Below, piece by piece: positions 4,514-21,449 of a stretch of DNA of 64,000 bases. The notes below the pieces were generated by a model that was not told the origin of the DNA, made no database searches, and saw only the letters and a list, made by a program, of their open reading frames with translations. The stretch spans positions 1-64,000 of the forward strand of contig JAAYVE010000046.1 of NCBI GenBank assembly GCA_012517315.1. Reading direction: 5' to 3'. The translations under genes were made by a program, and so were the position numbers. Every line of letters starts with the position of its first letter. The stretch's first letter is position 1. The DNA comes from Deltaproteobacteria bacterium. Lineage in GTDB: Bacteria > Desulfobacterota > Syntrophobacteria > Syntrophobacterales > Syntrophobacteraceae.

Positions 4514-4583
4514 CTCCTTCTCCCTCGGAACGGTGACGAGATCCCAAGAATGTGTCCTATTGTCTTATTCTGAAACAATCAAA

Positions 4584-4610
4584 TGATTCATTTTGTTTTA
4601 AGATGAATCA
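4584..4610. promoter_or_regulatory. Inverted repeat, candidate activator site upstream of the sigma-54 promoter
   Basis: TGATTCAT (4584-4591) and ATGAATCA (4603-4610) form a perfect 8-base inverted repeat with an 11-base spacer. It lies about 60-85 bases upstream of the -24 element at 4671, in an AT-rich tract. NtrC-family activators bind such repeats upstream of sigma-54 promoters. Part of the tract is conserved upstream of the decayed duplicate at 15561. Confidence 0.5.
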
Positions 4611-4669
4611 GTCTTTTAAACTATTGCTCCCTATTTTCCCAACTGACTCAAATCATTCCTTTATTTAGA

Positions 4670-4685
4670 TGGCACATCTCTTGCC
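4670..4685 (+). promoter_or_regulatory. Sigma-54 (-24/-12) promoter
   Basis: TGGCAC-N5-TTGCC has GG and GC separated by exactly 10 bases, matching the sigma-54 consensus. It lies in an AT-rich gap and points toward the receiver-CBS-DASS-permease unit. The same promoter architecture precedes the decayed duplicate at 15617. Confidence 0.8.
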
Positions 4686-4883: not shown

Positions 4884-5300
4884 GTGGCGACGTTGGAAGG
4901 CGGGGAGGCTTTGAAGGTTCTGGTCATCGAAACAGACGAGGGTTTTCGCCGGCAGATCGCACATCGCCTGCGCCTGGACGAATGCACGGTGATCGAGGTG
5001 TGTGAGGAGACGGCGGCCTTGGGCACCCTGCGGAAAAAGGATGTGGACGTGGTGCTCCTGGGTCTCCATGGATTCAGGACGACCGCCCTTGCCTTGCTCC
5101 GTGAAATCAAGCAATTACGGCCGACCTCGGAGGTCATTCTCATGAACGTTTCCGATGAACTGGCCCTTTCCATGGAGGCCATGAAACTTGGGGCCTTTGA
5201 TGATCTGTGGGCTCCCATCGATATGGAGACCCTTGTCGCCCGGGTGAAGGAGGCCCACAAGCGGAGAAAGTTGCGAGAAGGCCGCGAACGGTCGTTGTGA
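4884..5300 (+). CDS. Degenerate receiver-domain protein (pseudo-receiver)
   Basis: The protein has a full receiver fold (KVLVIETDEGF ... DVVLLGLHG ... EVILMNVSD ... GAFDDLWAPID). The phospho-acceptor Asp is Gly (LLGLHG), the switch Thr is Asn/Val, and the conserved Lys is Ala (WAP). It should therefore not be phosphorylated in the usual way and may act as a protein-interaction module. The start is uncertain: TTG 4851, GTG 4884 and TTG 4893 or 4911 are all in frame and none has ideal spacing; GTG 4884 is listed. It is the first gene after the sigma-54 promoter at 4670. Confidence 0.7.
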   Translation: MATLEGGEALKVLVIETDEGFRRQIAHRLRLDECTVIEVCEETAALGTLRKKDVDVVLLGLHGFRTTALALLREIKQLRPTSEVILMNVSDELALSMEAMKLGAFDDLWAPIDMETLVARVKEAHKRRKLREGRERSL

Positions 5301-5411: not shown

Positions 5412-5966
5412 ATGCAGACGATCAAGGTGAAGGAATTGATGGTGCCTCTGGCCAAGTACGCGACGGTGTCGGAGGATGCCACCCTGTATGAGGCGGTCTA
5501 CGCCCTGGAGGAGTCCCAGAAGAACGTGGAGGAGGGGCGGGACAGGCACCGGGCCGTTCTGGTCTGCAGCGGGGAAGGCCGGGTCCTGGGTAAGATCAGC
5601 CAATTGGACATTCTGAGGGGGCTTGAACCCAAATACGCGGAGATCGACAAGCTCACGGAGGAGTCCAAGCTGGTTTACAGCCCGGAAGTGCTCAAGTCCA
5701 TGCTGGAGGAATACTACCTCTGGAAGAGGCCCCTGGAGGACATTTGTAGGAAGGCGGCAGAGGTGCGGGTGAGCACCATGATGTCGATCCCTGGTCCCGG
5801 GGAGATGGTGGACGAGGAGGCGACTCTGGACGAGGCGATTCACCGGTTGCTGATGGGGCGCCTTCAGTCTCTTCTCGTGAAAAGGGGTGAAGAGTTCGTG
5901 GGGGTGCTCAGGCTGTCGGACGTGTGCGCCCGTATCTGCGACATGATCAAGGTGTGCAATCTTTAA
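5412..5966 (+). CDS. CBS domain-pair protein
   Basis: A 184-aa protein with two CBS motifs. The first is at residues 5-75 (VKELMVPLAKYATVSEDATL, then VLGKISQLDIL) and the second at about 115-180 (VSTMMSIPGPGEMVDEEATL, then FVGVLRLSDV). A helical insert separates them. CBS pairs usually bind adenosine nucleotides and report energy charge to a partner. Standing directly before two permease genes, it may regulate their activity; this is inference from context. The ribosome site is AAGGAG, and the start is well supported. Confidence 0.88.
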   Translation: MQTIKVKELMVPLAKYATVSEDATLYEAVYALEESQKNVEEGRDRHRAVLVCSGEGRVLGKISQLDILRGLEPKYAEIDKLTEESKLVYSPEVLKSMLEEYYLWKRPLEDICRKAAEVRVSTMMSIPGPGEMVDEEATLDEAIHRLLMGRLQSLLVKRGEEFVGVLRLSDVCARICDMIKVCNL

Positions 5967-6024: not shown

Positions 6025-7485
6025 ATGGCCGCGAAGGCGAAAGGCAAATTTGAATGGCAGCGTCTCTTCTTCATTTTGCTCGGACTTGCCGTGTTTTTTG
6101 GCATCTATTTTTCCGCTCCGTGGGCCGATGCCGTCGACCCCACCGGAAAAGCGTTTCCTCTTTCACCACAGGGTAAGGGAGCCATTGCACTGTTTCTCAT
6201 GGCGGGTATTTGGTGGGTGTTTGAGGTGGTGCCCATTGGGGTGACCAGTATCGCCATCGGAGTCATGCAGGCCATGTTCTTTATAAGGACCCCCCGGGAA
6301 GCGTTCAGTGACTTCATGGATCCTTCGGTGATGTTCATTTTCGGCTCTGTGGTGATCGGTCTTGCCTTCACCAAATCAGGCCTGACACGAAGGCTGGCTT
6401 ACAAGATGCTGGAACTAGCGGGGGAACGAACCAGCATGATACTGTTGGGTTGTCTGATCGTTACCGCGGCCCTAACCCATTTCATGGCCCATACAGCCGC
6501 CGCGGCCACGGTTTTTCCCATTCTCATCGCCATCAACGATCTGTACGGGGAGGGGGACCGGCCCACCAGGTTCGGCAAGTCGCTTTTCATTGGTATGGCC
6601 TACGCGGCGGGGGCAGGAAGCATCATCACTTTTCTCGGCGCGGCGCGGGGACCCGCTGCAGCCGGCATGTTCAAGGAGTTCACAGGGCGCGACATTGGGT
6701 TCTTCGAATTGACCAAATACTTGTCTCTCGTCGGTTGGCTCATGGTGTTCCTCATTTGGGCTTACCTGGGCGTTGCCTTCAAGGCGGAGAAGACCGTCAT
6801 CCCCGGCTTGCGGGAGCGGGTGAAAGGACTTTCCTCCCAGTTGGGAGTCTTGACACGCAATGAGATCCTGGTGATCGTTTTTGTCATCGGCGTCGTTATC
6901 GTCATGGGATTGCAATCCTTTGTTCCGACACTCAAGCCTCTCGATCGTTCCGCCATTATCCTCGTCTCGACTCTCATGTTCTTCCTCTGCAAAGTCCTGA
7001 CTGTGCAAGACCTCGAAGAAATCCCTTGGAACATCATCCTCCTTTTCAGCGGGGCCATGAGCATCGGTTTCTGCCTGTGGAAGACGGGGGCCGCTCAGTG
7101 GATGGCCGTCCACTGGTTGGCCATGTTTCAAAATGCTCACTGGATGGTCTTTGTCCTGGGAATCGCCCTCTTCGTCCTGATCATGACGAATTTCATCATG
7201 AACGTGGCGGCAATTGCCATCTCTCTCCCTGTTTCCCTCGTGATCGCCAAGTACCTGGGGGTTGCCCCCGACGTCATCCTATACGCATCACTCGTGACGG
7301 CGGGCATGCCTTTCGTGCTCCTGATCGGTGCAGCCCCCAACGCCATCGCGTACGAATCGAAGCAGTTCACCACCGGGGAGTTCTTCACCCACGGAATCGT
7401 CATGAGCGTCATCCTCATGGTGGTCCTGGGGATCGCCCTCGTAACCATCTGGCCCATGCTGGGAATGCCCATCCTCATGAAATAG
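6025..7485 (+). CDS. DASS/SLC13 family divalent anion:sodium symporter
   Basis: A 486-aa polytopic membrane protein with about 11-12 hydrophobic segments. It has the SLC13 two-repeat layout: a first re-entrant region with FMAHTAAAATVFPI (about 152-165) and a matching second one with FIMNVAAIAISLP, then a late LLIGAAPNAIAYESKQF typical of DASS carriers. Family members import dicarboxylates or sulfate with Na+; which applies here cannot be read from sequence. The start has a strong GGAGGAG ribosome site. It lies 58 bases after the CBS gene and 30 before the next permease, consistent with one operon. A remnant of a second copy lies at 15663-15842. Confidence 0.88.
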   Translation: MAAKAKGKFEWQRLFFILLGLAVFFGIYFSAPWADAVDPTGKAFPLSPQGKGAIALFLMAGIWWVFEVVPIGVTSIAIGVMQAMFFIRTPREAFSDFMDPSVMFIFGSVVIGLAFTKSGLTRRLAYKMLELAGERTSMILLGCLIVTAALTHFMAHTAAAATVFPILIAINDLYGEGDRPTRFGKSLFIGMAYAAGAGSIITFLGAARGPAAAGMFKEFTGRDIGFFELTKYLSLVGWLMVFLIWAYLGVAFKAEKTVIPGLRERVKGLSSQLGVLTRNEILVIVFVIGVVIVMGLQSFVPTLKPLDRSAIILVSTLMFFLCKVLTVQDLEEIPWNIILLFSGAMSIGFCLWKTGAAQWMAVHWLAMFQNAHWMVFVLGIALFVLIMTNFIMNVAAIAISLPVSLVIAKYLGVAPDVILYASLVTAGMPFVLLIGAAPNAIAYESKQFTTGEFFTHGIVMSVILMVVLGIALVTIWPMLGMPILMK

Positions 7486-7515: not shown

Positions 7516-9249
7516 ATGGCTCGGAAACGCTTTGTTGCTCTTTTTATCGGACTGTTCATCACCCTGGGCTTTCTTTCCGCCTCCGCCTCCGTTCCCCAGG
7601 ATAAGGCCGGGCCTTCCGACGTGCTCGTCATTGCGGGGACGGTCACCAACGCCCAGGGGAAGGCCATCAAAGAGGCGGAGATCGCCGTCTTTGTGGACGG
7701 CCGGGAAATCCACATGGAAGAAGAGGTGACCACGTCCAAGGCGGGCCGCTACGAGGCGGAACTGAAGCTCCCCCTCTCCACCCTGCCTCGAGGGAAGGTG
7801 GAGATCGAGGCGAAGAAGCCTTCCTACCAATCATCCAGGCGCATCGCCCTGGAGAACGTGGTGCGGGAAAAGGAAGACCCGGAGGGGAGCGTCTACTATC
7901 TCGCCCACCACAGTTTTGTCATGAAGCGGGCCATCACCCCCGCCTTCTGGATCGCCGCGCTGGTTTTGGTCCTCGTCTACGCCCTCATCGCCTTCGAGTG
8001 GATGCACCGGACCCTGGCGGCCCTCCTTGGGGCCGCCGTCCTCATGACCGTGAGCTACACGGCGGGGACGTTCGACAAGGACTACATGATCCTCTCCTTT
8101 GAGGACGCCATGCACGCCATGGACATGAATGTCATCTTCCTTCTCATGGCCATGATGATCATCGTAGGAGTCCTGAAGAAGACAGGGGTTTTCCAGTGGC
8201 TGGCCTACAAGTCCTACCAGTTGGCCCGGGGAAACGTGTTCGCCCTCGCATCCATCCTCATGGTGGTGACGGCCGTCACTTCCGCCTTTCTCGACAACGT
8301 GACCACGATGCTTCTCATCATTCCCGTGACCATTGAGATCGCCCTCACCCTCAAGATCAGCCCGGTCACGCTCCTTCTCCCTGAGGCTTTCGCCTCCAAT
8401 GTCGGGGGCACGGCCACCCTCATCGGCGACCCCCCCAACATCATGATCGGGTCCTACGCCAAGCTGAGTTTCGTGGACTTCGTGCAGAACCTCACGGTCA
8501 TCTGCGCCATTTGCCTTGCGGTGACAGTGGTGTACTTCGTCTTCTGGTACAAAAAGGGGTACATGAAGGCCCAGGTGGGCGACGTGCAGAAGATGATCAA
8601 GCGCCTGAGGGAGGAGTACCGGATCACCGACAGGGGCCTCCTTGTCAAGGGAGGGATCATCCTGGGGATCACCATTTTTCTTTTCATCATACACGGGGCC
8701 CTGCACATGGAGCCGAGCATCGCGGCCCTCATCGGTGCGGCGGTCTTGCTCGTGATAAGCAAAGTGGACCTTGTGGAGATGCTGGAGCACGAGATCGAGT
8801 GGCCCACCCTCATCTTTTTTATGATGCTCTTCATCGTGGTGGCGGGGGCGGAGGAGACGGGCCTCATCCAGATGATCGCCGACTGGGTGAACGACCTTTC
8901 CAAAGGGTCCCTCGTGACGGCCATTCTCATGATCCTCTGGGTGTCCGCCCTCGCTTCGGCCATCATCGACAACATCCCCTTCACGGCCACCATGCTTCCC
9001 ATCGTGGGCTACCTCACCACGGCCATTCCAGGGGCCGAGAGCGGCGTTCTCTGGTGGGCCCTCGCCCTCGGGGCGTGCCTGGGCGGCAACGGAACAATGA
9101 TCGGGGCGAGCGCCAACGTGGTCACGGTGGGGATGGCGGAGCGGGCCGGCCATCCCATTTCTTTCATGGAATATTTGAGAGTGGCCTTCATCCCGATGAT
9201 CATCACCATCATCCTGTGTTCCTTCTGGCTCCTTTTGGTGGAGATGTAA
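7516..9249 (+). CDS. ArsB/NhaD-superfamily permease with N-terminal exported beta-domain
   Basis: This 577-aa protein begins with a signal peptide (about 1-26). An exported domain of about 100 residues follows, resembling transthyretin/carboxypeptidase-regulatory beta-sandwiches (IAGTVTNAQGKAIKEAEIAV). A permease of about 10-11 membrane segments then carries the ion-transporter superfamily signature ASNVGGTATLIGDPPNIMIG near residue 300. A second DNIP-type motif (IIDNIPFTATMLP) and GGNGTMIGASAN form the matching second repeat. The superfamily moves oxyanions, organic anions or Na+/H+. The extracytoplasmic domain suggests ligand capture or partner docking. The ribosome site is AAAGGA. A frameshifted paralogue lies at 15867-17600. 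Confidence 0.87.
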   Translation: MARKRFVALFIGLFITLGFLSASASVPQDKAGPSDVLVIAGTVTNAQGKAIKEAEIAVFVDGREIHMEEEVTTSKAGRYEAELKLPLSTLPRGKVEIEAKKPSYQSSRRIALENVVREKEDPEGSVYYLAHHSFVMKRAITPAFWIAALVLVLVYALIAFEWMHRTLAALLGAAVLMTVSYTAGTFDKDYMILSFEDAMHAMDMNVIFLLMAMMIIVGVLKKTGVFQWLAYKSYQLARGNVFALASILMVVTAVTSAFLDNVTTMLLIIPVTIEIALTLKISPVTLLLPEAFASNVGGTATLIGDPPNIMIGSYAKLSFVDFVQNLTVICAICLAVTVVYFVFWYKKGYMKAQVGDVQKMIKRLREEYRITDRGLLVKGGIILGITIFLFIIHGALHMEPSIAALIGAAVLLVISKVDLVEMLEHEIEWPTLIFFMMLFIVVAGAEETGLIQMIADWVNDLSKGSLVTAILMILWVSALASAIIDNIPFTATMLPIVGYLTTAIPGAESGVLWWALALGACLGGNGTMIGASANVVTVGMAERAGHPISFMEYLRVAFIPMIITIILCSFWLLLVEM

Positions 9250-9340: not shown

Positions 9341-11092
9341 ATGGAAAATGCTCAGTATTATCGGTCCTTGAGCCGGAACCTGGTCTCGATCGTCATCGTC
9401 GTGTCCTTCACCCCCCTTTTGCTCATTGCGGCTCTCATCGGGTACAGCTTCGAGACGTCCTACAAGGGGAAGTCCATTGCCTACCTCAAGGAGACGGTGA
9501 AGCGGAACCAACAGAACATCGATGTGTTCTTGAGCGAGAAACTGGATTACCTCAAGGTGCTCTCCCGCTCGTACACCTTCGAAGAGTTGACCGACGAGAA
9601 GTTCTTGGCCCGCAAGTTGGCCATTCTCCAGGATGCTTACGGAGGGGTGTTCGTGGACTTGGGGGTAGTGAATTCCCAAGGGATCCAGGTGGCTTACGCA
9701 GGGATGTTCAAGCTGGAGCGGGCCGACTATTCCAAGGCCGAATGGTTCAAGACGGCCATGAAGCGGACCCATTTCATCAGCGACGTGTTTCTGGGGTTGA
9801 GGAGGTCACCCCATTTCATTGTTTCCATCAAGCACAACTGGCGAGGGGAAGACTATATCCTACGGGCGACGGTGGACTTTGTCCAGTTCAATTCCCTGGT
9901 GGAGAATGTGCGCATCGGGGAGACGGGGCATGCGTTCATCATGAACCGTGCGGGGGAGTTCCAGACGAAGGTGGGGCCGGAAACCGAGGCGAACCGCGAA
10001 TTTTACATGGCACTCCTCCAGAAGAACGGGTTGAAGTGGGAGGACGGCGGCCTGGATGCGGTGAGCGGCGTCCCGAGCTTCACCTATTCCTATTGGGATT
10101 CGCCCTACAAGGAGATCATCCTGACGGGCGAAGGCAGGCGTGGAGGAGATGACTTCGTCTACATCATGACGCCCCTCAAGAGCGGCGAGTGGGTGTTGGT
10201 CTTCCAGCAGGACAAGAGCGACGCCTTTCGAGACCTTCGGCGAGCCCGGTTCCTTGCACTGGCCATCTTGTTGCTGGGGGGTGCGTCCATCGCGGTGACG
10301 GCGATCCTGGTGTCCCGCAAGATGGTGAGCCGCATCGAGATGTCGGATCGGGAAAAGGAGATGATGAACGAGCAGGTGATCGAGACGGGAAAGCTCGCCT
10401 CGGTGGGGGAACTGGCGGCGGGGATCGCCCATGAGATCAACAACCCCGTGGCCATCATGGTGGAGGAGGCGGGGTGGATCGAGGACCTGTTGCGGGATGA
10501 GACGCAGATGGAGGCGTCGAAGCTCGAGGAGGTGAAGCGGGCCCTCACCCAGATCAACACGCAGGGGGAGCGTTGCAAGGAGATCACCCACAAGCTCTTG
10601 AGCTTTGCCCGTCGGACGGATCCGCGGGTGGTGGAGGTGAACATCAATGAGGTGCTCGAGGAGATTTTGAGCATCTCCGAGCAGCGGTCCAAGTTCAGCA
10701 ACGTGAAACTGGAGAAGAACCTGGATCCGGATCTCCCCCACATCATGGCCTCCCCGTCGGAGCTGCAGCAGGTGTTTCTCAATCTCATCAACAATTCCCT
10801 CGACGCCATTGGGACGGGGGGAGGGACCATCACGGTCACCAGCAGGCTTGCGGATGACCGGTTGGTGGTGGATGTGGCGGACACGGGGACGGGCATGCCC
10901 AAGGCGATACTGGCGCGGATTTTCGAGCCTTTTTTCACCACCAAGCCCGTAGGGAAAGGAACCGGGCTGGGTCTTGCCATTTGCTACGGGATCATCAAGA
11001 AGATGGGGGGGGACATTACGGTGAACAGTGCGGTAGGGGTCGGCACCACCATGCACGTTTACCTGCCAGTGCCCAAGGGGGCGGTGCCGTGA
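9341..11092 (+). CDS. Cache-domain sensor histidine kinase
   Basis: Membrane segment 1 (about residues 14-36) and segment 2 (about 300-320) flank a periplasmic region of about 260 residues. It resembles a double-Cache sensor (features such as GGVFVDLGVVNSQGIQVAYAG and IGETGHAFIMNRAGEF). The cytoplasmic part has HisKA with the phospho-His motif GIAHEINNPVA and HATPase_c with NLINNSLDA, DTGTGMP, FEPFFTTK and GTGLGLA. Cache domains bind small molecules such as organic acids or amino acids. Its place after two anion permeases suggests it senses their substrate. The start has a GGGGGAG ribosome site. Confidence 0.92.
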   Translation: MENAQYYRSLSRNLVSIVIVVSFTPLLLIAALIGYSFETSYKGKSIAYLKETVKRNQQNIDVFLSEKLDYLKVLSRSYTFEELTDEKFLARKLAILQDAYGGVFVDLGVVNSQGIQVAYAGMFKLERADYSKAEWFKTAMKRTHFISDVFLGLRRSPHFIVSIKHNWRGEDYILRATVDFVQFNSLVENVRIGETGHAFIMNRAGEFQTKVGPETEANREFYMALLQKNGLKWEDGGLDAVSGVPSFTYSYWDSPYKEIILTGEGRRGGDDFVYIMTPLKSGEWVLVFQQDKSDAFRDLRRARFLALAILLLGGASIAVTAILVSRKMVSRIEMSDREKEMMNEQVIETGKLASVGELAAGIAHEINNPVAIMVEEAGWIEDLLRDETQMEASKLEEVKRALTQINTQGERCKEITHKLLSFARRTDPRVVEVNINEVLEEILSISEQRSKFSNVKLEKNLDPDLPHIMASPSELQQVFLNLINNSLDAIGTGGGTITVTSRLADDRLVVDVADTGTGMPKAILARIFEPFFTTKPVGKGTGLGLAICYGIIKKMGGDITVNSAVGVGTTMHVYLPVPKGAVP

Positions 11093-14342: not shown

Positions 14343-14632
14343 TACTACCTCCTCGCGTTCTTGCTGGGTTCAACGGTTTGAAGCCCACGTCCCATCCGGC
14401 TTCCTCAGGGTGAATTGTGGCAATAGTCATGCCACCGAGGTTTTCCCCCTGGGAGCGGGGGGGGAAGGGAGTTGGATCGGGGCGGATTATGGGTTTATGG
14501 GATCTGGCGCCGGGTCTGCCGCAGAAAAGGCGACGGGGAAGAAGTCCCCCCGCTCCAGAGATGCTGGAGCGATGGGAACCGAGTTTTGGGAAGGGAAGGA
14601 GACTGCCGGTTGAGTGCTGTGGTGGTGCGGGT

Positions 14633-15082: not shown

Positions 15083-15560
15083 TGCCTCCTCACTTGGTGG
15101 AACGTCCAGTGGCGGCTGCTCCCACCGACCACACTGAAGAAACGGCTGCAAAATATAGCCGGTTGCCCGGGCCACGGGTTCATTTCGTTCCCTGGAATAG
15201 GTCCCAGAGGGGGGCTCTCTTGGGGAACGCCCTTCCTCCCGTGCGTAGAAAAACAGGGCGTCGCCCGTGACCCATCTCCGGGGTGGGGATAACTCACGGC
15301 AACGGGCCTGTCAAGCACCGAAACCCCCTATTTTCGAGAAGGAAGACGGTCCTCTACGCCCACCATCGCGGCGTAGCCCGTCCCTAGATGCCCCTCCTTT
15401 GCCCCTCGTGCCACTTCAGGTTGCCCTCGGGGTAAAGATGGGGCGAAACAAGCGTTGCAAACAGGGCAATTCTCATGGGATACAGGAAATCAAATGTTTT
15501 ATTAAGGATCATAGTGAAACTCTAGGATGATTCAATATGTACTAATTTGAGAGATTAAAG
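15083..15560. other. Gene-free region before the duplicated promoter
   Basis: About 480 bases with no supported coding frame. The last 80 bases turn AT-rich and include TGATTCA at 15528-15534, matching one half of the inverted repeat upstream of the promoter at 4670. Confidence 0.4.
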
Positions 15561-15632
15561 AATGATTTTTTGCCTTAAGATCTTATAACTATCTGTATTT
15601 CATATCAATAGTTTTATGGCATGCCCTTTGCC
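15561..15632 (+). promoter_or_regulatory. Duplicated sigma-54 promoter region
   Basis: The box TGGCAT-N5-TTGCC (15617-15632) has GG and GC 10 bases apart. The AT-rich stretch from 15561 aligns with the region from 4582 (AATGATT, TTTTG, TTAAGAT in the same order), so this is a copy of the promoter at 4670 with its upstream sequence. It faces the decayed permease genes. Confidence 0.7.
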
Positions 15633-15662
15633 TATTAGCAGGGTAAGCGGGAAAAGCCAATC

Positions 15663-15842
15663 ATGCTTCTCATTGGGTTCGCAATCAACTCCATCGCCCA
15701 TCTATCCGTGGAATCCATCACCGGCGGGTCCTTCAGCCACGGGGTTGTGGTCGGTATCCACCGCGTGGTGGTCCTGCGGATCAGGATCGCGACCCTTTCC
15801 AATCTGCCGGTGCTGTCCTTCTTCATCCTGAAACGCAGAGGA
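15663..15842 (+). pseudogene. C-terminal remnant of a DASS permease
   Basis: The translated segment (LLIGFAINSIAHLSVESIT ... GSFSHGVVV ... FFILK) aligns across its whole length with the last 57 residues of the permease at 6025-7485 (LLIGAAPNAIAYESKQFTT ... GEFFTHGIVM ... PILMK). The rest of that gene is missing, and the stop codon has been lost so the frame runs into the next gene. It lies 30 bases after the duplicated promoter. A deletion therefore removed the receiver, the CBS gene and most of the DASS gene from the second copy. Confidence 0.75.
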
Positions 15843-15866
15843 GCCACACAGAAAGGGAATCAACTC

Positions 15867-17600
15867 ATGTTCATGCAACCAATTGTCATTTTTGTCGGCG
15901 GACTGCTCATTTTGCTGAGCTCCTCTGTCGCATACTCATGCACATCCCAGGCTGGGGCGGGGCCTTCCGACGTGCTCGTCATCGCGGGGACGGTCACAAA
16001 CACCCATGGAAAGGCCGTGAAGGAGGTGGAAATCGCCGTTTTCGTGGAGGGCCGGAAAATCCACACTGAGGGGGAAGTGGCCACGTCCAAGGCGGACTGC
16101 TACGAGGCGGAACTGAGGCCCCCCTCTCCACCCTGCCTCGAGGGAAGGTGGAAATCGAGGCGAAGAAGCCTTCCTACCAATCATCTGGGCGCATCGCCCT
16201 GGAGAACGTGGTGCGGGAAAAGCAAGGCCCGGAGGGGGACGTCTACTATCTCGCCCACCACAGTTTTGTCATGAAGCGGGCCATCACCCCCGCCTTCTGG
16301 ATCGCCGCGCTGGTTTTGGTCCTCGTCTACGCCCTCATCGCCTTCGAGTGGATGCACCGAACCCTGGCGGCCCTCCTGGGGGCCGCCTTCTTCATGACCG
16401 TGAGCTACACGGCGGGGACGTTCGACAAGGACTACATGATCCTCTCCTTTGAGGACGCCATGCACGCCATGGACATGAACGTCATTTTCCTGGTCATGAC
16501 CATGATGATCATCGTGCGGGTTTTGAAGAAGACGGGGGTCTTCCAGTGGATGGCCTACAAGTCCTACCAGTTGGCCCGGGGAAACGTGTTCGCCCTCGCA
16601 TCCATCCTCATGGTAATGACGGCCGTCTCCTCTGCCTTTCTCGACAACGTCACCACCATGCTCCTCATCATTCCCGTGACCATCGAGATCGCCCTCACTT
16701 TCAAGATCAACCCCGTGACGCTGCTCATGCCCGAGGTCTTTGCATCCAATGTGGGAGGCACGGCGACCCTCATCGGCCACCCCCCCAAAATCATGATCGG
16801 CTCTTACGCCAAGCTGAGCTTTCTCGACTTCGTGCAGAACCTCACGGTCATCTGCGCCATTTGCCTTGCGGTGACGGTGGTCTACTTTCTCTACTGGTAC
16901 AAGAAGGGGTACATGAAGGCGGAGGCGGGAGACGTGCAGAAGATGATCGCCTACCTGAGGGATGAGTACCGCATCACGGACGGGGTCCTCCTCATGAAGG
17001 GAGGGGTCATCCTGGGGACCACCATCTTTCTTTTCATCATACACGGGGCGCTCCACATGGAACCCAGCATCGCGGCCCTCATCGGTGCGGCGGTCCTGTT
17101 GGTTCTGAGCAGGGTGGACATCGTGGAGATGCTGGAGCACGAGATCGAGTGGTCCACCCTCGTCTTTTTCATGATGCTTTTCATCGTGGTGGCGGGGGCG
17201 GAAGAGACGGGGCTCATCCAAATGATCGCTGGCTGGGTGAACGACCTTTCCAGGGGATCGCTCGTGACGGCCATACTCATGATTCTCTGGGTGTCCGCCA
17301 TCGCCTCGGCCATCATCGACAACATCCCCTTCACGGCCACCATGCTTCCCATCGTGGCCCACCTCACCACGGCCATTCCCGGGGCCCAGGGGGGGATTCT
17401 CTGGTGGGCCCTGGCCCCTAGGGGCGTGTCTGGGGGGCAACGGAGCCATGATCGGGGCGAGCGCCAACGTGGTGACGGTGGGCATGGCGGAGCGGGCGGG
17501 CCACCACATCCCGTTCATGGCTTACGTGAAGGTGGCCGCCGTTCCCACGGCCATCACCATGATTCTTTCATCCCTCTGGCTTTTGCTGGTGGAGCTGTAA
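15867..17600 (+). pseudogene. Frameshifted paralogue of the beta-domain/ArsB-type permease
   Basis: This is a close copy of the gene at 7516-9249 with the same order: signal peptide, exported beta-domain, permease. Relative to that gene it has a 1-base deletion near 16110-16120 and a 1-base insertion near 17410-17430, so no single frame encodes the protein. The permease signature has also drifted (LIGHPPKIM against LIGDPPNIM). Substitution at such conserved positions argues for real decay and not only sequencing error. The original start is ATG 15867 and the original stop TAA 17598-17600. Confidence 0.85.
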
Positions 17601-17643
17601 CGCGGTGAACGGGAGGATGGGGACCGAACGGTTCTGTCCCGTA

Positions 17644-19062
17644 TCAATCTTCGGGACCGGAACGTTTGAACGCTTTAGATTCCATCCTCTTTTCCCGCAT
17701 CAGGCGATGAAGGTACTGGCGCTTGAGCCCTGAATCCTTAGCCGCGTGGGAAACGTTGCCCGCGTGCCTGGCAAGGATGCGCTGGATGTATTCCGTTTCA
17801 AAGGCCTCCAGGATCCGGTCCTTTGCCTCCTTGAAAGGCATGGAGAAGAGGTCTTCTTCAGCGGTGGGGAGTGTCCCGGCCCGCGGAACGTCCCCGCCCG
17901 CCATGGAAAGGTCGTCCACCTCGAGGGTATCCCCCTGAGCCAGGATAACGCCCCGCTCCACCACGTTTTCCAGTTCGCGGATATTCCCCGGCCATTCCCT
18001 TCTCATGAGAAAATCTAGGGTCTCCCGGGAAATCCGCTCCACCCTTTTCCCATGCAGGACATTGTATTTTTCCAGAAAATGGGAAGCCAGCAGAGGGATG
18101 TCCTGGAGCCTCTCCCTCAGAGGGGGCAGGTGGATGTTGATGACGTTGAGGCGGTAAAAGAGGTCTTCCCGGAATTCTCCTTTCCGGATCCGCTCCGGGA
18201 GGTTTTGGTGCGTCGCTGCGATGAACCGTGCGTCGACCTTCCGGATGGTGTTGGACCCTACCGGCTTGTATTCCCCTTCCTGGATGAGCCTGAGAAGCTT
18301 CACCTGCATGACGGAGCTCAAGTCCCCGATTTCGTCAAGAAAAAGCGTCCCCTGGTTGGCCTCCTCCACGAGGCCCCTTTTGTCCCGGATGGCCCCGGTA
18401 AAGGAACCCTTCAAGTGGCCGAACAGCTCACTTTCGATGATGGTTTCCGGGATCGTGCTGCAGTTGATGGGAATGAAAGGCTTGTCCCTTCGCGGACTTT
18501 GAACGTGGATGGCCCGGGCGACCAGTTCCTTGCCCGTACCGCTCTCTCCCGTGAGAAGGACGGTGGCGGAGGTCCCTGCAACCCGCTCGATATTCCTCTG
18601 AAGCGTTTGCATGGCCGGGCTGGAGCCGATGAGAGCGGGGAACCGGGGCCTTCCGTCCAGTTGCTCCCTCAGGTAGAGGTTCTCCCGGTGCAGTTTCTGC
18701 CACTGCACGGCTTTCTCCACCACGTGGAGAATCCTTTCTTTGCGAAAAGGCTTCGTGATATAATCGAAGGCACCTTTGCGGGTTGCTTCAATGGCCGATT
18801 CAATGGTGCCGTAAGCCGTCATGACGATGACCGCAGTGCTCTCGTTTTTCCTCTTGACCTGTTCCAGGACCTGGATGCCGTCCAGATGGGGCATCTTCAG
18901 GTCCGTGACGACAACGTCGAAGTCCTGATGCTTCAATACGTCCGGCAGGTTGCGGGAATCTTCCATCGTCACGACGGTGTAGCGGGATTTCTCAGAGAAG
19001 ATCCGCTCAAGCAGGACGAGCATGTCCTTTTCGTCGTCGATCATGAGAATTCTTGCCTGCAT
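17644..19062 (-). CDS. NtrC-family sigma-54-dependent response regulator
   Basis: A 472-aa three-domain protein. The receiver (1-120) has acidic pocket MIDDEKD and acceptor Asp in VVTDLKMPHLDG. The AAA+ domain has Walker A GESGTGKE, a GSFTGA loop (Ser in place of the common Ala) and Walker B LFLDEIGD. The C-terminal Fis-type HTH contains NVSHAAKDSGLKRQYLHRLM. The start is ATG 19062, preceded by GGAGGG, not the longer open frame. It is transcribed divergently from the Cache/PAS kinase at 19164, its likely partner. A shared 18-base site in this divergent gap recurs before the UspA-TauE operon, a probable target. Confidence 0.93.
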   Translation of the reverse strand: MQARILMIDDEKDMLVLLERIFSEKSRYTVVTMEDSRNLPDVLKHQDFDVVVTDLKMPHLDGIQVLEQVKRKNESTAVIVMTAYGTIESAIEATRKGAFDYITKPFRKERILHVVEKAVQWQKLHRENLYLREQLDGRPRFPALIGSSPAMQTLQRNIERVAGTSATVLLTGESGTGKELVARAIHVQSPRRDKPFIPINCSTIPETIIESELFGHLKGSFTGAIRDKRGLVEEANQGTLFLDEIGDLSSVMQVKLLRLIQEGEYKPVGSNTIRKVDARFIAATHQNLPERIRKGEFREDLFYRLNVINIHLPPLRERLQDIPLLASHFLEKYNVLHGKRVERISRETLDFLMRREWPGNIRELENVVERGVILAQGDTLEVDDLSMAGGDVPRAGTLPTAEEDLFSMPFKEAKDRILEAFETEYIQRILARHAGNVSHAAKDSGLKRQYLHRLMREKRMESKAFKRSGPED

Positions 19063-19131
19063 TGGGCTCCCTCCGGATGCAAAGGTGGTGGATTCATTGT
19101 GTTGTGGATCCCCTGCCCCTGTCAATCATTA

Positions 19132-19149
19132 TGTCACCTGAAAGTTTCA
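19132..19149. promoter_or_regulatory. Putative activator-binding site, copy 1
   Basis: TGTCACCTGAAAGTTTCA contains the palindrome TGAAAGTTTCA, symmetric around the central G. It differs at one of 18 positions from a site at 22270-22287 upstream of a strong sigma-54 promoter. It lies in the gap between the divergent NtrC-type regulator and its kinase, just before the kinase start. The likely binder is the regulator encoded at 17644-19062. Confidence 0.6.
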
Positions 19150-19163
19150 TGTGGGAATTCACG

Positions 19164-21449
19164 ATGAAGTCGATGCAAACGAAGGAGAGAACGCGACTCT
19201 ATCGCATTCTCATGGGTGCAGGAATCCTGGCTGTCCTCCTGGTATGTGTGGCGATCTACCTGGGTTTTTCCACCTCCCGTTACATGAAGGGGATCATCAG
19301 GGACCAGTTCAACGACGAACAACTGGCGCTGGCAAGGGCCGCCGCTCAAAGGATCGAATCCACCCTGCGTAATGCCATGACGGATCTGGTCCTCCTCAAC
19401 TCCCTCCCCGCCATCCAGTATTGCGACATGGACGCTTATGAAGTGCTCCTGCTGTCCACCTTGCCCGTTCTCCGAAGGGACTGCATCGTGGAGATCCGGA
19501 GGGTGGATCGGGAGGGAAACACCCTTTTTGTGGCCAATGAAGAGGGGATCGGCATGAAGCATCTCGGCCTCCGTCATCGGGAGGCGGGTGCCTTTCTGTC
19601 CTGGGCGGCGGACGTGGGCAACCGGGGAAGAATCATGGGGACCGGGACCCGTGCCAGGGATCCGGCAAGCGACCGTCGGGTCATCCTCATGGACCTCATC
19701 ATCCCCACCTACGAGGACGCCACCGATGCCAAACGGCCCCACGCTTCCCACCGCTTCAGCGGCTATCTCAAGGGCATCGTCAATGTCACTGAGTTGTTGC
19801 AGCAGTTCATGCCGTCCATCCGTTCCGGCAAGACCGGCTATGCGTGGGTTTTGGACGCTTCGGGGAATTTTCTGTATCATCCCGAGAGCATATTTGTGGG
19901 GGAAAACGCATTCGAGGCGCGCAGCAACCGCAATCCCAACATTTCCTTTGCCAAGATCAACGAGATCCAGAGAAACGAAATGCTTCGGGGTAACGAAGGG
20001 AAAGGGACGTATTTTTCCGGCTGGCACCGGGAAGTGGTGGAGCCAATGGAGAAACTACTCGCCTTTTCTCCCGTGCGCATCCAGGGCCCTTACGTGGACT
20101 ATGTGTGGTCCGTGGCCGTCGTGGCCCCGGCGGAGGAGATCGAGGGGATCGTCGCATCCGTCTATGGAAGGCAGATCTTCCTGGAGGGAATCGTCATTTT
20201 CATCATCCTGACGGGGAGCGTCATGGTGCTGCTCCATGAGTTGCGCTGGTCCACCATTCTGGAAAACGAGGTAGCGCTCAAGACGGACGACATTCGCCGC
20301 TATTCCCTGGAACTGGAGCGATCGGAAGCCAAGTACAGATCCCTTGTGGAAAGTGCCGACGATCTCATTTTCACCTTGGATCGAAATGGGTGCATCCGAA
20401 CGGGGAATCGCCAGATGCTCCAGTTCTTCGGCCTTTCACCGGAAGAATTGCCGGGGAGGGAGTTGAAGGCGCTTCTGCCCGGGACGCAGGCCGATGAGCA
20501 ACTGATATACATCGGCAGGGCGCTGGAGACGGGGGAACCGCAAAGAATGGAGACCCGTTTTCCCATCTCCAGCGAGGAAATTTGGTTCAACATCCACTAC
20601 GTCCCCATCCGCGGGGAGGGAGGGGACGAAGATCTGGTGCTTTGCGTGGCGCGGGACATCACGGACACCAAGAGCCTGGAAAGGCAGCTCATCAACACGG
20701 AAAAGCTCGCATCCCTGGGTACCCTTGCAGCGGGGGTCGCCCATGAAATCAACAATCCCCTGGGGATCATGCTGGGGTTTTGCGACCTGCTGCTGGAGCG
20801 CATGGAACCGGGCACCATGGAGTACAGCGACCTCAAGACCATCGAACGCCACGGACTCCACTGCCGGAGCATCGTGGAGAGACTTTTGAGTTTTGCACGC
20901 ATGGGTGAAGATTCAGAGGAGCTCTGCGACCTCAACAGCAATGTGGAGGACATCCTGGCCGTGGTGAAGCACACCCTGGACATGAACAAGATCCGCCTGG
21001 TTTTCTCCCAGGAGGCGGGACCCCTCATCGTGCGGGGAGGGTGCAAGGATGTGCAGCAGGTGCTCCTGAACCTCATCAACAACGCGGTTTATGCCATGGA
21101 TGGAGAGGGGATTCTCACCGTCCTCACCCGCAAGAGCAGAAAGGCCGGGTTCGCGGAGGTGGTCGTCTCCGACACGGGTTGCGGCATCAAAAAGGAATAC
21201 AGGGAGAAGATCTTCGACCCGTTTTTCACCACCAAGAAGGTGGGGGACGGCACCGGCCTCGGCCTCTCCGTCAGCTATGGGATCATTGGAAAGCACGGCG
21301 GGACCATCGAATTCGAGAGCTTCACCGACGAGGAGAAGCCGGGCCAGTCGGGAACGACCTTTCGCATTCTCCTTCCGATGGCCGACGAGGAAACGGTCGG
21401 CGACGAAAGTTTTCGCTGTCCCTCCGACGCTTCGGGCTTTGAAGGGTGA
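19164..21449 (+). CDS. Cache and PAS domain sensor histidine kinase
   Basis: About 761 aa. Membrane segment 1 (about residues 12-34) and segment 2 (about 335-357) enclose a large periplasmic sensor with Cache-like features ([21 protein letters not shown]). A PAS domain follows (about 385-500, [19 protein letters not shown]). HisKA has [11 protein letters not shown], and HATPase_c has [25 protein letters not shown] and GTGLGLS. ATG 19164 is chosen for its distance to the first membrane helix; upstream in-frame starts exist and ribosome sites are weak. It is divergent from and probably paired with the NtrC-type regulator at 17644-19062. Confidence 0.92.

Follow-up and report, generated by a model that had tools for sequence, protein, structure and literature searches.

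The described systems closest to the locus considered here are bacterial pseudogenes of duplicated transporter genes, ectopic (interlocus) gene conversion, the permeases of the CitMHS/ArsB/DASS (ion transporter) superfamily, and the DASS putative sulfate transporters of sulfate reducers (PMC5840216). We analyzed a window of 64,000 nucleotides (the whole stretch of DNA studied) from a sulfate-reducer-like bacterium with a 4.43 Mb genome in 61 contigs, whose nearest named public relatives are metagenome-assembled genomes labeled Deltaproteobacteria and Syntrophobacteraceae. It carries two related permease genes, an intact one (copy A) and, downstream of it, a damaged one (copy B). Copy A is like the superfamily permeases in its Pfam CitMHS match and in its fold, and differs from them by an N-terminal beta domain. 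Its intact DASS-type neighbor matches PF00939, the Pfam model used for DASS in PMC5840216; the main text of that paper contains none of the terms Syntrophobacter, CBS domain and response regulator, and under these terms it gives no description of the module. Copy B is like other bacterial pseudogenes of duplicated transporter genes in its frameshifts, the deletion of neighboring genes, the substitutions at conserved motif positions and the presence of an intact paralog nearby, but it differs from them by a strongly segmental relation to copy A and a 5′-to-3′ gradient of lost constraint. With ectopic gene conversion the A/B pair shares a near-identical tract and sharp changes of relationship along the gene.

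Copy B is probably an ordinary pseudogene of a familiar kind with an unusually readable history, and the case changes no general view. To the simple description of a decayed duplicate our analysis adds what looks like a greater age, conversion by segments and a loss in stages, which together make a legible case of a bacterial transporter duplicate dying, with the partner gene and beta domain apparently going first and the membrane domain last. We consider it likely that staged decay of a duplicated DASS/permease module driven by sigma-54 has left the region 15617–17608 as a pseudogene. Duplication of the module would have come first and probably predates the divergence from the closest relative sampled; an internal deletion would then have taken out the genes for the receiver and the CBS protein together with most of the DASS gene, placing the promoter before what remained of DASS and the permease. 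Thereafter the DASS tail and the beta domain of the permease would have drifted neutrally, purifying selection still acting on the membrane domain, and ectopic gene conversion between the copies would have homogenized codons ~84–200 and possibly others. Finally, the membrane domain would have been lost late, through motif substitutions and a frameshift replacing its last two helices. The homology, the frameshifts, the motif changes, the mosaic relationship and the differing substitution patterns are observed; the sequence of events, conversion as the origin of the mosaic and the loss of function are inferred from them.

The intact module and its genomic setting

Copy A closes a module in which a sigma-54 box is followed by genes for a receiver, a CBS protein, a DASS-type symporter and the beta-domain permease, with a dCache histidine kinase thereafter (Table 1). 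The sister species (G001) has the same module order, with 73–86% protein identity for the genes present whole and part of the kinase. The DASS-type gene passed Pfam PF00939 (144 versus a cut-off of 27 bits) and fell under the curated cut-off of TIGR00785 (174.7 versus 198.6 bits). Copy A lies above the gathering cut-off of PF03600 (CitMHS; 285.8 versus 31.9 bits) and far short of the curated cut-off for the magnetosome transporter MamN (NF040989; 191.9 versus 500 bits), and its N-terminal beta domain remains below the Pfam cut-off for CarboxypepD_reg (26.8 versus 32.3 bits). An AlphaFold model of copy A (mean pLDDT 77.9) has ArsB 10tp and VcINDY as its best Foldseek matches, and the predicted fold is that of ArsB/VcINDY. 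By eye, palindrome-like halves are seen upstream of the sigma-54 box, TGATTCA...TGAATCA at 4580–4620 of the window and GATGCTTCAA...TTGAAGCATC in the sister species (L037), of which only the left half is recognizable in copy B; these look like candidate activator sites.

Table 1. Coordinates of the features of copies A and B in the 64,000-nucleotide window
Feature	Position	Strand	Evidence
Sigma-54 box of intact module (copy A)	4670..4684	+	Consensus match; similar boxes in homologous modules of G001, G008, G015, G010
Receiver-domain gene, intact module	4908..5300	+	Pfam Response_reg E 1.5e-12
CBS-domain gene, intact module	5412..5966	+	Pfam CBS E 1.1e-11
Intact DASS-type anion symporter gene (486 aa)	6025..7485	+	Pfam Na_sulph_symp E 9.8e-42
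Intact permease, copy A (577 aa): beta domain ~34-136, CitMHS membrane domain from 142	7516..9249	+	Pfam CitMHS E 5.8e-85
dCache histidine kinase after copy A	9341-11092
AT-rich upstream region, copy B	15480..15616	+	71% A+T, box included
Sigma-54 box kept by copy B, TGGCATGCCCTTTGC	15617..15631	+	Consensus match
DASS C-terminus remnant, end not sharply defined	15657..15830	+	Profile match E=1e-4
Open frame fusing DASS remnant to permease signal/beta domain, up to first frameshift	15663..16274	+	ORF list, translation
First frameshift site, copy B one base fewer than copy A, codon ~85	16113..16122	+	A/B DNA alignment
Stretch near-identical to copy A (codons 84-200, 96.6%)	16115..16465	+	Exact run of 120 nt at 16240-16359; AU test
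Membrane-domain open frame, copy B (445 aa), altered hydrophilic end after second frameshift	16271..17608	+	Translation
LIGDPPNIM motif, LIGHPPKIM in copy B	16775..16801	+	D305H, N308K
Codons 399-577 of copy B, nearer to sister species gene than to copy A	17060..17600	+	AU test, bootstrap
Second frameshift site, copy B one base more than copy A, codon ~525	17414..17421	+	A/B DNA alignment
Sigma-54-dependent response regulator downstream of copy B	17644..19125	-	Pfam Sigma54_activat E 3.6e-70

The decayed second copy retains a promoter and pieces of two genes

A sequence-only reading of this DNA had described 15561–17600 as a decayed second copy of the promoter-DASS-permease module, and this description holds: the DNA of copies A and B is 88.4% identical over 1663 bp (E=0), and copy B (extent 15480–17608) comprises, in order, an AT-rich stretch, a sigma-54 box, a DASS tail (from ~15657) and a permease gene ending near 17600. 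The retained sigma-54 box stands as claimed, whereas retention of the AT-rich region from the module is borne out in part. That region aligns to the upstream region of the sister species' module with a score equaled in 1/500 shuffles, but its homology to the upstream region of copy A is weak (29/500 shuffles reach the score). The window contains seven matches to the consensus TGGCAYN5TTGC, where shuffles lead one to expect 0.23 (30-fold enriched); five further boxes lie at 14420–14434 (minus strand), 22372, 32554, 53219 and 58148, and the inspected part of the window is rich in histidine kinases, receivers and sigma-54 activators.

A DASS profile derived from 13 proteins and run against the 1503 frame segments of the window exceeded the inclusion threshold at two places, the intact DASS gene and the tail in copy B (next segment, E=1.4). 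The remnant covers profile positions 428–475, in frame and at the expected place. The last 57 codons of the DASS gene had been thought retained; about 48 are recognizable, and the stop codon is missing, such that the remnant reads on in a single open frame into the permease beta domain. The permease itself, claimed to be whole, is nearly so, with 572 of 577 codons mappable and no stop when read in the frame of copy A, but the first ~38 codons align poorly between the copies. The frame 16148–17608 of copy B still matches Pfam CitMHS (E 6.4e-81), and the homology of this gene to the permease is certain.

Lesions in the permease of copy B

Aligning copies A and B shows both frameshifts that the sequence-only reading had called, one base fewer and one base extra, each within or next to a run of C; it also shows the substitutions in the LIGDPPNIM signature. 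The GDPPN core is identical in all 22 other aligned copies, and D305H and N308K occur in copy B only; the last residue of the signature differs in two other copies, none of which departs in GDPPN. Across the alignment, copy B breaks 6 of 143 invariant columns, against 1 of 144 in each of copy A and the sister species; among the other 20 relatives, 17 show 0–5 departures and three distant ones 11–21. Copy B combines frame-disrupting lesions relative to an intact homolog (two single-base indels) with the loss of residues invariant in functional homologs.

In the model of copy A, residues 301–305 form a break between helices 284–300 and 306–315, with D305 at the break between these two half-helices and N308 just past it. 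VcINDY reads VGSPPN at the position aligned to GDPPN, and its sodium site presumably lies near the aligned motif. The second frameshift falls at the matching break (525–531) of the second half of the model and swaps helices 532–543 and 550–576 for a hydrophilic tail (mean hydropathy –1.17 versus 1.22).

Mosaic relationship of copy B to copy A and the sister species

The relation of copy B to copy A changes sharply along the gene. For the A/B pair, pS rises from 0.05 at codons 86–190 to 0.31 at 191–525 and 0.47 at 530–577, while between A and the sister species it is 0.42–0.48 over the same three segments; at codons 530–577 the sister species (pS 0.36) is nearer to copy B than copy A is. The longest run identical between A and B was equaled in 0/10,000 permutations. 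For tree comparisons we assembled a codon set of 23 rows (A, B, the sister species and 20 others), in which nine of 15 further loci were included; L059, L060, L066 and L070 (judging by their length, contigs of genomes already sampled), L072 (cut by a contig end) and L073 (a remnant) were omitted, as were the permease places of G012 (three fragments), G018 (damaged), G027 and G029. AU tests used 10 of the 23 rows, with codons 519–531 excluded from both 3′ segments. At codons 84–200 grouping of A with B was preferred and that of B with the sister species rejected (p=0.016), while at codons 399–577 B with the sister species was preferred and A with B rejected (p=0.025); the two segments thus support significantly different, opposite topologies, with limits that, as in the substitution tests below, were picked after inspecting the data. 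Codons 480–577 alone lean to B with the sister species (p=0.07), codons 201–398 to A with B, the alternatives not being rejected (AU 0.05–0.09), and at codons 39–83 no grouping is favored. With all 23 rows, codons 481–577 group B with the sister species at 98% (DNA) and 95% (protein) bootstrap. The full-length DNA tree joins A and B at 100%, whereas the protein tree of codons 201–577 joins B and the sister species at 100%, a conflict expected of mixed ancestry.

This segmental pattern of trees and pS points to a duplication that probably predates the divergence of the sister species, and to later gene conversion between the copies as the probable cause of the mosaic. Intact copy A would then probably have overwritten parts of copy B during its decay. 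In the draft genome of the sister species (740 contigs), a search for an ortholog of copy B yielded only the copy at the A locus and cross-matches of the downstream regulator region. An assembly swap of the two halves at the 120-nt identical run was considered as a source of the mosaic and is unlikely: it would place the end of copy B before the histidine kinase at 9341, and the assembled permease-histidine kinase order around copy A is also that of the sister species.

A simple recent duplication, with the module copied as a unit and decaying evenly since, would account for the pieces lying in module order, the overall identity of 88% and the full-length DNA tree. It sits poorly, however, with the very uneven A/B identity (pS from 0.05 to about 0.5), the rejection of A with B at codons 399–577 and the constraint described below on codons 201–524 of copy B, which is unlike even neutral decay; we regard it as improbable.

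Apparent order of decay along copy B

Changes on each branch were counted as silent/replacement codons with the sister species as the single outgroup. On the B branch, the DASS tail shows 4/17 over 46 codons (neutral replacement fraction 0.73) and permease codons 1–84 show 2/9, versus 23/10 at codons 201–524, where replacements are fewer than neutral (binomial p=3e-7). The DASS tail differs from codons 201–577 (Fisher p=0.0009), and codons 1–84 differ from 201–524 on the B branch (p=0.0045) but not on the A branch (5/2 versus 23/17, p=0.68). A neutral pattern hence fits the DASS tail and codons 1–84, whose counts are small, but not codons 201–524; in the near-identical tract the replacement excess is not significant (p=0.11). 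Over codons 39–577 as a whole, copy B (30/21) is no worse than copy A (33/24), so the substitutions alone do not demonstrate a long-dead gene. In the dN/dS comparison suggested by the sequence-only reading, the value between the copies over codons 39–577 is 0.205 (A versus the sister species, 0.108).

The contrast between the neutral-like DASS tail and codons 1–84 and the constrained codons 201–524 suggests that the 5′ part was released from constraint first; with small counts, post hoc boundaries and one outgroup, it looks to have decayed first. The membrane domain apparently kept its use for a long time once the DASS gene was lost, its own loss coming late, and the constraint on codons 201–524 is consistent with a recent loss. 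This order is read from one lineage, no ortholog of copy B having been found in a second genome.

A different account takes the first frameshift as old and harmless and the membrane domain as a past or present separate permease without the beta domain, re-initiated at the ATGA at 16271–16274. In keeping with it, the constraint boundary lies near the first frameshift, the first frame closes with a TGA that overlaps an in-frame ATG (Met136) lying six residues ahead of the first membrane helix, and one relative (L069) has an open permease frame without the beta domain. Such overlaps are nonetheless common (in the corresponding frame of the intact gene, 14 of 30 stops overlap an in-frame ATG), for which reason we rejected the ATGA as a sign of designed coupling; moreover, no ribosome-binding site is evident by eye before 16271, and the present copy bears the motif substitutions and the hydrophilic tail in place of its last helices. 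We hold this account to be quite improbable. The same low probability attaches to its fuller form, in which copy B was long a working stand-alone permease minus the beta domain, with a captured sigma-54 promoter, re-initiation behind a DASS/beta-domain leader and a membrane domain partly maintained by conversion from copy A, and is maybe translated today; a permease of this kind that is still translated is unlikely.

Duplicated, solitary and damaged permeases in relatives

Among 40 genomes (our own included), 13 have a permease match and 14 a DASS match at E<=1e-60. In one of these (G008; L038 5591–15475), two complete RR-CBS-DASS-permease modules stand in tandem, and another (G015) has, besides its one module, a second permease that lacks DASS. 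At five loci (L042–L046) a permease occurs with no DASS gene recognized in the available stretch, some of these stretches being short. The permease with the open frame and no beta domain (L069 6846–8285) has a signal-like N-terminus and shows that the membrane domain occurs without the beta domain.

That copy B is instead a working permease without a DASS partner of its own, its frameshifts being sequencing or assembly errors, is a reading to which the C runs at both indels, the 572 codons free of stops in the frame of copy A, the purifying selection at codons 201–524 and the permeases lacking a recognized nearby DASS gene lend something, but it is very improbable in view of D305H and N308K at positions identical in the 22 other copies, the broken invariant columns and the neutral-like change 5′ of the first frameshift. 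Sequencing error could cause the indels, not the substitutions.

We return to the preferred reading, the staged decay of a duplicated module. Module duplication followed by loss is the best reading of copy B, as its promoter, DASS and permease pieces lie in the order of the intact module and intact tandem modules exist in G008. The further proposal that the module was duplicated as a unit and that one copy is being lost is right in outline, but it does not cover three points: the duplication is probably older than the species split, parts of copy B appear homogenized with copy A, and the loss is not of the whole unit. Within the family, the permease of the module has more than once been duplicated, split from DASS and lost, which speaks for a dispensable or exchangeable part. 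Behind the DASS gene of G011 (L048), a search of the gap for a permease remnant gave no permease match at E 10. In G018 (contig C168; L020 111–1256) the permease is damaged, with an internal stop, residues 315–408 missing and, toward its end, a change of frame. Another Syntrophobacteraceae genome (JAGPLX010000007.1; L073 9862–10475) has a remnant from which much more has been deleted, three pieces of ~35–61 residues in 614 nt, close to orthologs of the regulator and histidine kinase located after copy B (window 17644–21449); it may be an ortholog of copy B, its neighbors resembling both the A and the B loci.
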